A stretch of 64,000 nucleotides of DNA, taken from contig NZ_AP026709.1 of the NCBI RefSeq assembly GCF_027923765.1, positions 491,501-555,500 on the forward strand. The letters run 5' to 3'. Origin of the DNA: Pseudodesulfovibrio nedwellii (GTDB taxonomy: Bacteria > Desulfobacterota > Desulfovibrionia > Desulfovibrionales > Desulfovibrionaceae). Position numbers and translations under genes: made by a program. Under the pieces are notes generated by a model. It was not told the origin of the DNA. It was given only the letters and a program-made list of their open reading frames with translations, and did not search any database. The first letter of the stretch is position 1. The number at the start of each line of letters is the position of its first letter. Positions 56,831 to 64,000 of this stretch are shown here, piece after piece.

Positions 56831-56840
56831 ATTTCAATCG

Positions 56841-56880
56841 TGGTAGCGAGGAGAGGACTTGAACCTCCGACTCTACGATG
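56841..56880 (-). tRNA. 3' fragment of a tRNA gene (att scar at the island's left end)
   Basis: About 40 bases on the minus strand fold as the last part of a tRNA: anticodon-stem end CGTAG, variable loop, a full T arm (GGAGG-TTCAAGT-CCTCT), acceptor strand CCTCGCT, discriminator A and CCA. The 5' half is missing on the right, where island DNA starts. This is the direct-repeat remnant left by integration into a tRNA. Enough of the anticodon loop is lost that the amino acid cannot be named. Confidence 0.8.
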
Positions 56881-57230: not shown

Positions 57231-57839
57231 TTGAAGAACTGGTCGAACTTAAATTGTAATCCTTTAGATGGAGAATGGACCTTGTCGGCAACAACAATTC
57301 TTGAAATTTACAATGGTAGGGAAATCACGGTCACGGATGGGATGTTGAATCTCACCAGTCTTTGGAAGGCGTGTGGTGGGGAACAGAGGAATAAGCCTAC
57401 AAAGTGGTTTGCCAATAGCAGCACTTGTAAATTGGTTGAGGCTGTTGGAAAGAAAAAAGGTCAGGATTCTGACCTTACAAAATTTGTTAAGGGTCGTAAC
57501 GGCGGCACCTTCGCCCATCCCATTATTGGCCTTGCCTATGCCAAATATCTCAGCCCGGAGTTCCATATCTGGTGTAACAAAATCACGGTCACAGACGGGA
57601 TGTTGAACCTCACCAGCATGTGGAGAGCGTGTAGGAGAAATCAAAACCGCAAACCCGCTGAGTTTTTACGCTGGGAAGGTTCTCAGCGGCTGATAGACGC
57701 GGTTGATGAAAAGTTGGGCAAAGTTGGGATATCCCAACTTATCAATATCACCAAAGGTCGCTACGGCGGAAATCAGGTCCATTCTATTATTGGCCTTGCC
57801 TACGCCAAATATCTCAGCCCGGAGTTCCATATCTGGTGA
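57231..57839 (+). CDS. double KilA-N domain protein
   Basis: 202 residues: a short leader and two complete tandem KilA-N units (about 31-115 and 118-202). Each unit shows the VTDGMLNLTSLWKACGG start, a KPxxFL/KW segment, a variable stretch, and the end KGRxGG...HxIIGLAYAKYLSPEFHIW. KilA-N is a phage/plasmid DNA-binding domain. The start is uncertain: the only candidate is TTG at 57231, just 2 bases after AAGGAGG. The stop falls directly after the FHIW of unit 2, where other units continue with CN. Further decayed units follow downstream. Confidence 0.7.
   Translation: MKNWSNLNCNPLDGEWTLSATTILEIYNGREITVTDGMLNLTSLWKACGGEQRNKPTKWFANSSTCKLVEAVGKKKGQDSDLTKFVKGRNGGTFAHPIIGLAYAKYLSPEFHIWCNKITVTDGMLNLTSMWRACRRNQNRKPAEFLRWEGSQRLIDAVDEKLGKVGISQLINITKGRYGGNQVHSIIGLAYAKYLSPEFHIW
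57457..57476. repeat. palindrome P1 in KilA-N module 1
   Basis: AAGGTCAG, a 4-base centre GATT, CTGACCTT. Encodes residues KGQDSDL in frame. 8-bp dyad. Confidence 0.85.
57721..57740. repeat. palindrome P2 in KilA-N module 2
   Basis: AAGTTGGGATATCCCAACTT, a perfect 20-base palindrome in the corresponding position of module 2, coding for KVGISQL. Confidence 0.9.
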
Positions 57840-58014: not shown

Positions 58015-58096
58015 ACCAACATCAATCGCCCCCTCGAATGTCTTCGGCTTTCCAAGGTCGGGGAACTGATGAATGCACTATCGTCAAAGAAGAATC

Positions 58097-58121
58097 CAAA
58101 GGCGGGATAATCCCGCCTTTG
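58097..58121. repeat. palindrome P4 in KilA-N module 4
   Basis: Perfect 12-bp arms (first arm CAAAGGCGGGAT) around one central A, 25 bases in all. Encodes KGGIIPPL. Confidence 0.9.
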
Positions 58122-58307
58122 ACCAATATTAAAAAAGGCCGTTACGGCGGCACGTTTGCCCATCCCATTATCGTCACAGTCACGGACGGGATGTTGAATC
58201 TCACCAGTCTTTGGAAAGCGTGTGGTGGGGATAAAAGCAATCAGCCCCATGCTTTTCTCCGCTCTCCAGCAACTGAAAAGATAATGATTGCTTTAGTTAA
58301 GAAGTCT

Positions 58308-58330
58308 AAAGCCGTAAATATTACGGCTTT
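58308..58330. repeat. palindrome P5 in KilA-N module 5
   Basis: 10-bp arms (AAAGCCGTAA) around ATA. Encodes KAVNITAL. All five palindromes lie just before the LTNI-like start of the end block. Confidence 0.9.
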
Positions 58331-58466
58331 GACCAACATTAAAAAAGGTCGCTACGGTGGAAACTTTGCCCATCCCATTATTGGCCTTGCATATGCTAAA
58401 TATCTCAGCCCGGAGTTCCATATTTGGTGCAATGATGTTTTGGTGACATGTAACACGCTTAAATAA

Positions 58467-62904: not shown

Positions 62905-62960
62905 ACGCGGTCTAAGAAGGGTGAGCGGGGTGGATGTTGAAACCCCGTTCATTTTTATCA

Positions 62961-63074
62961 AGTGATATAATAAAACGAACGTTTTTTATTCTTGTTTTGA
63001 TATATAAAATGGGTTGACTATTTTATTCCATTGAATGTATAAATAAATCTCGTTGAACGTTTTATTATATCACT
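62961..63074. repeat. perfect 17-bp inverted repeats flanking the recombinase promoter
   Basis: AGTGATATAATAAAACG at 62961-62977 and its exact reverse complement at 63058-63074, 80 bases apart. The promoter of the recombinase lies between them. Next to the left arm the sequence continues as a dyad (AAAACG-AA-CGTTTT), the form expected for a serine recombinase crossover site; the right arm is less symmetric. Confidence 0.9.
63014..63043 (+). promoter_or_regulatory. sigma-70 promoter for the serine recombinase
   Basis: TTGACT at 63014-63019 and TATAAA at 63038-63043 with an 18-base spacer, five of six matches at each box. It lies about 45-70 bases upstream of the recombinase ATG. Confidence 0.75.
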
Positions 63075-63086
63075 GGAGAAGTGATC

Positions 63087-63698
63087 ATGGGAAAGGCAGT
63101 CGCATATGTCCGGGTTAGCACCACGAAGCAGGATGTTGAAAGTCAGGAGAACGCAATTCTGAAATACGCCGATTCCGAAGACATCAAAATTCACCAGTGG
63201 TTCAAACTGGAAGCCAGTAGTCGGAAATCGATTAAGGAACGCCGTATTGATGAACTTCTGAATGTCTTGGGAGATGGAGACACACTGGTTGTCTCGGAAC
63301 TCTCCCGCCTCGGAAGATCATTGTCCCAGATTGTTTTGACGATTGATGAGTTGCTGGGGAAGGGTGTGACCTTTGTTGCTATCAAGCAAGGAATGAAGCT
63401 TAACGGAGCCAAGGATATCACTGCAAAGGTTCAAATTGCCATGTTCGGATTACTGGCTGAAATTGAGCGTGATCTTATCTCAGAGCGCACTAAAATGGGC
63501 TTAGATGCCGCCAGAGCGAAGGGAAAGACACTTGGCCGTCCGAAAGGCAGCAAAGGCAAAAGCAAGCTGGATGGACGTGAAGATGAGATTGTTGACCTGC
63601 TCCAGAAGGGGATCAGCAGACGCGCTTTAGCATTGTATTTGAAGGTTGCTCCCCCGACATTAGTAAACTTCATTAAGAGCCGAAATTTGAGCGTCTAA
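63087..63698 (+). CDS. serine site-specific recombinase (resolvase/invertase family)
   Basis: 203 residues. The catalytic serine is Ser11 in AVAYVRVSTTKQ; the ELSRLGRS block, the long E helix region (TAKVQIAMFGLLAEIERDLISERT, by position about 110-135) and the C-terminal DNA-binding helix-turn-helix (about 165-200) are intact. It is the small resolvase/invertase type, not a large serine integrase. ATG 63087 is favoured over GTG 63081 by GGAG at 63075-63078. The inverted repeats around its promoter suggest that it acts on its own control region. Confidence 0.9.
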   Translation: MGKAVAYVRVSTTKQDVESQENAILKYADSEDIKIHQWFKLEASSRKSIKERRIDELLNVLGDGDTLVVSELSRLGRSLSQIVLTIDELLGKGVTFVAIKQGMKLNGAKDITAKVQIAMFGLLAEIERDLISERTKMGLDAARAKGKTLGRPKGSKGKSKLDGREDEIVDLLQKGISRRALALYLKVAPPTLVNFIKSRNLSV

Positions 63699-64000
63699 AG
63701 CCCCCCCCTGTCAAAAATGGCGGCTTCGTCGTTGCGGCTTCGGCCTCTCCATATTTTCGCAAAACCCTGACGTTGTCGGAGTTGAAAAAATTCGGACTAA
63801 CCCCGATTACCTCAAATTAAGTGAGTCTTCGTTGGTGTAGGGCGGGATAAATTGGTAAGTGTCATAAGCAGCATACATTTCTGGACAAAGATAACAATAA
63901 TTGTTTAATATATGTCGCTGCGCAACCTTTTGTAAATACAGGTTTTTTCTGTCAGGATGCTGATTGCTTTGCTTTCCAACACGGGGAAACCATTTAAGTG
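63699..64000. other. right edge, no gene seen
   Basis: 302 bases, AT-rich in the right half. No supported gene or clear terminator; the island continues past the window since no intact tRNA or second att copy appears. Confidence 0.5.

Follow-up and report, generated by a model that had tools for sequence, protein, structure and literature searches.

A putative res-like array in front of an orphan small serine recombinase gene in a tRNA-Met-integrated element of Pseudodesulfovibrio nedwellii

The res site of Tn3 is described as a stretch of 114 bp with three dimer sites, in which catalysis takes place at site I only while sites II and III are architectural, and in which the spacer of site II is 9 bp longer than that of site III (PMC9943657). 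According to a second account, subsite III is the one nearest to tnpR, res contains promoters, and the binding of the resolvase has an autoregulatory effect (PMC7157771). Inversion of 13 regions in Bacteroides fragilis has been reported for the master DNA invertase Mpi (PMC4747536). Here we compare these systems with a locus of Pseudodesulfovibrio nedwellii that lies within the window, i.e. the whole stretch of 64,000 nucleotides of DNA that was analysed. The features of the locus and of the element that carries it are collected in Table 1.

Table 1. Features at the recombinase locus and in the surrounding element; positions are those of the window unless a record is named
Feature	Position	Strand	Remark
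Terminator-like G+C-rich stem and T run, 3' of the upstream gene	62923..62960	+	found by eye; absent from the + strand scan list
Left arm of the 17-bp inverted repeat, AGTGATATAATAAAACG	62961..62977	+	left half-site of site I formed by the inner 12 bp (62966-62977)
Site I, putative crossover site	62966..62991	.	half-sites 62966-62977 and 62980-62991; central AA 62978-62979; core ACG-AA-CGT
Site II, putative accessory site	63001..63027	.	half-sites 63001-63012 and 63016-63027; centre straddled by the -35 hexamer
Promoter-like TTGACT (63014-63019), 18 bp, TATAAA (63038-63043)	63014..63043	+	TTG[AC] at equal offset in 10/17 loci
Site III, putative accessory site	63037..63069	.	half-sites 63037-63048 and 63058-63069, separated by about 9 bp
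Right arm, exact reverse complement of AGTGATATAATAAAACG	63058..63074	-	comprises the outer half-site of site III and 5 further bp
Small serine recombinase of 203 aa, interpreted as a resolvase	63087..63698, ATG at 63087	+	PF00239, 117 bits
Element left end, 42-bp exact direct repeat including the tRNA-Met 3' end	56836..56877	.	empty site, exact repeat, tRNA calls
Element right end, second 42-bp copy	L019:7702-7743		outside the window
Hachiman pair HamA (389 bits) / HamB (1201 bits)	L019:1371-4732		downstream of the recombinase, past the window end

An earlier note on this DNA had named the gene as that of a small serine recombinase, and indeed it is intact and has a match to the resolvase family. 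The protein aligns with the gamma-delta resolvase as well as with a DNA invertase across the catalytic and DNA-binding parts, and the alignment with the gamma-delta resolvase spans residues 6-197 and includes the serine motif, so that both a resolvase catalytic domain and a C-terminal DNA-binding part are present. By sequence it is nearer to the DNA invertase (75 bits) than to the gamma-delta resolvase (53 bits), and the nearest solved structure, again by sequence, is that of a DNA invertase. The best named family is Mpi (NF009949), also an invertase, with a score of 170 bits which lies below the curated cut-off of 272. As the NCBI Mpi label is likewise found on a plasmid homologue adjoining a Tn3 transposase, this label leaves the function unsettled.

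Protein searches retrieved relatives in other genomes at 80% to about 40% identity. Within the class, 14 of 348 genomes carry a relative (E 1e-55), which means that the gene is sporadic. No relative was found in viral contigs with the single protein as query; with an alignment as query 80 loci were kept from 177 relatives, and 32 of these 80 were examined. Some relatives have prophage-like surroundings: the copy of L083 lies near a weak portal match and a transglycosylase domain, and a terminase-like reading frame, recognised by eye, follows the copies of L030, L031 and L034.

Directly upstream of the gene lies the exact inverted repeat that the earlier note had described, with arms 80 bp apart that agree in 17 of 17 bases. 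The window contains no other perfect inverted repeat of at least 14 bp with a loop of 20-400 bp. Among 20,000 sequences simulated by a first-order Markov model of the local AT-rich stretch, a repeat of 17 bp occurred in none and one of 14 bp in a single sequence, while repeats of 12 bp and 10 bp occurred in 44 and 545 sequences, respectively. At two mismatches or fewer the 17-mer is found nowhere else in the 3.76-Mb genome. The exact 17-mer was also seen once each in six viral contigs.

Between the arms the earlier note had placed a promoter. Its letters (TTGACT-18-TATAAA) are present, but the pair is missing from the list of the consensus scan because the scan demands a T at position 6 of the -10 hexamer; it gave two other weak promoter candidates instead, one per strand. 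On the other side of the gene, a run of 7-10 C is found within 100 nt 3' of the recombinase stop codon in four of 18 loci (the window at 63701-63708, L023, L028 and L035), and the run at 63701-63708 is the sole run of at least seven C in the whole window.

The upstream regions of the relatives share the palindrome AAAACG-NN-CGTTTT, and when anchored on the centre of this palindrome they align without gaps. The exact core ACGNNCGT is located at the anchor in 12 of 18 loci, where it starts 105-118 nt before the start codon; the remaining six have no exact core between -160 and -60. For a half-site profile, each offset from 0 to +104 was scored against the 12-nt left arm of the same locus, with shuffles of the region as the null, in 16 loci (the window, 14 relatives in genomes and the plasmid locus L061). 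The top offsets were the other half of the palindrome, as the anchoring leads one to expect, +22 in the same orientation (Z 8.8), +37 in inverse orientation (Z 5.3), +57 to +59 in the same orientation (Z 4.8-5.0) and +79 in inverse orientation (Z 8.2), plus neighbours of these, values which are optimistic, like the permutation values below, because the relatives share ancestry and are not independent.

Judged by these offsets, the region looks like a row of six half-sites that form three inverted pairs and hence three putative dimer sites. The inner gaps of sites I, II and III are about 2, 3-4 and 9 bp, and the site centres lie at 0, about 35.5 and about 74.5. Only site I has the spacing of a crossover site, and it is also the best conserved part of the region. 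Site III covers the -10 hexamer, which lies in its left arm, and the expected transcript start. The 17-bp repeat consists of the first and the last of the six half-sites plus 5 bp each. In the window these outer arms agree in all 17 bases, which is more than the inner half-sites do, an excess that a reading as res alone leaves unexplained.

Compared with the res of Tn3 and gamma-delta, the array of the window has the same length of 114 bp and likewise three putative dimer sites next to the gene. The distal one is the palindromic crossover site and thus far from the gene, site III lies beside the gene and the promoter, a pair not listed by the promoter scan, lies within the array, all of this as judged from the letters. 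In addition, some homologues hold the position of tnpR beside a Tn3 transposase. There are differences as well. The centres of sites I and II lie 53 bp apart in Tn3 whereas they are about 35.5 bp apart here, and the accessory site with the long gap is site III in the window array but site II in Tn3. Due to this difference in spacing the array is filed as res-like and not as a Tn3 res. Unlike in Tn3, no transposase accompanies the gene of the window, and its product is distantly similar to the gamma-delta resolvase. Indeed, no Tn3 transposase (PF01526) was found in the genome of the window, and one is present in one of the 16 recombinase-bearing genomes searched, which makes the natural substrate of the recombinase a guess.

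The hix and gix sites have the layout AAAACC-AA-GGTTTT, and the core of the window, AAAACG-AA-CGTTTT, is laid out in the same manner. In this respect and in the similarity of the enzyme the locus resembles the Hin, Gin and Cin invertases, but in contrast to these systems the window has no second crossover site in inverted orientation.

The array was also followed through the single loci. When a 14-nt arm was used, 13 of 18 loci had the best inverse match to their own site I arm at +77 to +79, and seven of the 18 were individually at p<0.01; the loci that miss this position are L026, L034, L035, L038 and L028, the last of which was mis-anchored. As a check against mere matching of A tracts, the outer 8 nt, which are lineage-specific, were compared with other half-sites of the same locus and with those of the other loci (17 loci). 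The mean agreement with the right half-site of site III was 5.18 of 8 for the own half-site and 3.60 for those of others (0 of 20,000 permutations), with the left half-site of site II 4.41 and 3.51 (p 0.00055), and with the right half-site of site I 4.00 and 2.62 (p 0.00005). At single loci the match to the right half-site of site III ranges from 2 to 8 of 8. Own half-sites are thus matched better than those of others, so that the arms tend to change together, as expected if they are read by one protein.

For these counts the following rules were used. L022 duplicates the locus L023 and was excluded. L027 (39-41% identity) lacks the array and was included in the 18 loci of the core count, but not in the 18 loci of the arm-offset test or the 17 loci scored for orientation. 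L031, a near copy of L030, was omitted from the half-site profile and the own-arm test while it was kept in the arm-offset and orientation counts. L028 has its start codon further upstream, is therefore mis-anchored and was counted as a miss in the arm-offset test; it was left out of the half-site profile and the own-arm test and re-anchored for the orientation and core counts. L039 was kept despite a stop codon inside the matched frame.

Among the 32 viral-contig loci examined (of 80), ACGNNCGT is located 60-160 bp upstream in eight, with 0.38 expected, and among these eight a clear inverse arm near +80 is seen in L094 only (10 of 12). The downstream sites are less clearly kept in the plasmid homologues than in near relatives: an inverse arm at +77 is clear in L061 (12 of 14) but not in the closely related L074 (8 of 14).

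For the plasmid homologues, 17 records were opened from the best 30 of at least 5000 matching records. In six of the 17 an annotated Tn3 transposase, in one case split into two genes, is placed divergently beside the recombinase; one record is unannotated, and ten have no Tn3 transposase in the stretch opened. In several of the transposase-less stretches replication or partition genes are found nearby. The exact core is present within 190 nt upstream in eight of the 17 plasmid homologues, including three of the six beside a Tn3 transposase. In a Moellerella plasmid (L059) the region that separates the Tn3 transposase from the recombinase holds an inverted repeat, with arms of 15 bp (TTAACATTATGTATA and the complementary sequence), which lies about 33-74 bp before the recombinase and differs from the array of the window.

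The locus belongs to an integrated element. A genome of the same species, G314, has no recombinase match at E 1e-55, and alignment with its chromosome revealed an empty site at which the flanks join at a stretch that is found twice in the genome of the window. This empty site and the 42-bp repeats at the tRNA-Met gene delimit an element of about 14.4 kb, which contains a tyrosine integrase (PF00589), KilA-N genes, the recombinase and a complete Hachiman pair. Two KilA-N genes (57231-57839 and 58038-58466) lie near the left end of the element, and segments look repeated between them. G314 itself carries a different insertion of about 11.7 kb (L066:3021-14729) at the 3' end of the tmRNA, a site near that of the window's element at which the genome of the window has no insertion.

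Nine neighbourhoods of relatives were fetched and 20 chosen neighbours were scanned. A tyrosine integrase was found within about 6 kb of the recombinase in five of the nine (L075, L076, L078, L079 and L080). L022/L077 contains ZorD and, by eye, an McrBC-like pair, the first gene of which was matched by a PADLOC restriction model, and L080 a type ISP restriction enzyme. These neighbourhoods suggest that integrating elements, several of which are defence islands, carry the module along. The window's element and L077 each encode a protein of 593 aa; that both are the same integrase was considered and rejected, as the protein of L077 has a MotA/ExbB match and BLASTP gave no similarity between the two.

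From the conserved array we conclude that the repeats very probably serve the adjacent recombinase as sites. The earlier note had offered this, and autorepression as an option, and both gain support from the comparison of sequences, which is not the case for the flipping of the segment that it had proposed along with them. We consider it most likely that the orphan resolvase and its res-like array form a module that would convert dimeric or tandemly repeated copies of the element into monomers and would repress itself. In such a module, dimers of the recombinase would bind to the three sites in a row within the 114-bp stretch 62961-63074. Strand exchange would take place at the core of site I only, between two copies of the whole array that are present as direct repeats on one DNA molecule, for instance where the 14.4-kb element has formed a dimeric circle after excision or is integrated in tandem, and recombination would thus resolve the joined copies into monomers, while sites II and III would have an architectural function. 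Autorepression is likely as the putative sites enclose the promoter of the recombinase: binding at sites II and III would cover the -35 and -10 hexamers, by which the gene would be repressed by its own product. Binding, repression, resolution and the nature of what is resolved are in this sense what we infer from the layout of the locus.

Other readings have to be weighed against such a resolution module. An unlikely one is that the array is an autoregulatory operator while the recombinase carries out a different reaction, for instance one in which it acts with the tyrosine integrase to excise or stabilise the element. The presence of a tyrosine integrase in the element of the window and within about 6 kb of the recombinase in five of nine neighbourhoods would fit with this, as would a genome without a second copy of the array. 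However, site I displays the full geometry of a crossover site in the best conserved part of the region, and the repeats that form the element ends are located at the tRNA-Met gene and do not have the array inside them.

We regard it as very improbable that the recombinase is a master invertase of the Mpi type which acts on distant inverted sites, the upstream array being merely its own operator. Mpi is the best named family, the 13 inverted regions of B. fragilis provide a precedent, and a primer published for the PSA promoter of B. fragilis includes ACGAACGT with the same core letters (PMC10939037), a lead from the primer sequence by which the core ACG-NN-CGT may be shared. On the other hand, the Mpi score lies below the family cut-off, the Mpi label is also found on the gene adjoining a Tn3 transposase, and no inverted pairs of core sites were found in the genome. 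Exact WAAACGNNCGTTTW occurs in the genome at site I only, and sites with one mismatch or fewer are no commoner than those of a control pattern (35 versus 59 per strand); the 17-mer with three mismatches or fewer is no commoner than its control either.

Finally, the earlier note had suggested an invertible promoter. In this reading, the recombinase would cut at each arm and invert the 78-80 bp that they enclose, and would thereby turn itself off. What speaks for this is the exact inverted repeat itself, which flanks a promoter-like sequence beside a recombinase of which Mpi is the best named family and a DNA invertase the nearest solved structure by sequence, together with the closer match of the outer arms to one another than that of the inner half-sites. 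For crossover, a serine recombinase needs a site whose two arms are placed around a centre of 2 bp. A palindrome with such a centre surrounds the left arm only, whereas in the site of the right arm the core is missing and the gap measures about 9 bp, so that the two arms sit in dimer sites of unlike geometry. The bases beside the arms are AA on the left and TT on the right in the inverted alignment (AA and AA in the direct one), and the ends would therefore not match. With TTG[AC] as a marker of orientation, the interior is forward, with the marker at exactly +35, in ten of 17 loci including the window, and flipped in none of the 17; seven are unscorable by this marker. The region of the window has one assembled orientation, and in 13 of 18 diverged loci the offset of the right arm varies by no more than 2 bp. 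Given the geometry of the sites, the forward interior in all scorable loci and the fixed spacing of the arms, we discarded the invertible promoter as highly unlikely.

With resolution by a res-like module as the preferred reading, a wider proposal can be made, albeit a tentative one that we rate as rather doubtful. A clade of resolvases in the tRNA-integrated defence islands and prophages that these bacteria carry may use a res layout of its own, with a short site II over the -35 hexamer, a long site III over the -10 hexamer and a distance of about 35.5 bp between sites I and II, and may thereby keep integrating defence elements monomeric, a role that is usually credited to the multimer-resolution systems of plasmids.

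The reading as phase variation is hence replaced by a resolution module that can be tested. As a rule for similar finds, where a small serine recombinase is preceded by an inverted repeat whose arms are separated by about 80 bp, the repeat can represent the outer half-sites of a res array. If the layout constitutes a separate class, it would provide a further system in which to study how the geometry of accessory sites controls recombination, and it would suggest that integrative defence islands can bring their own multimer resolution.
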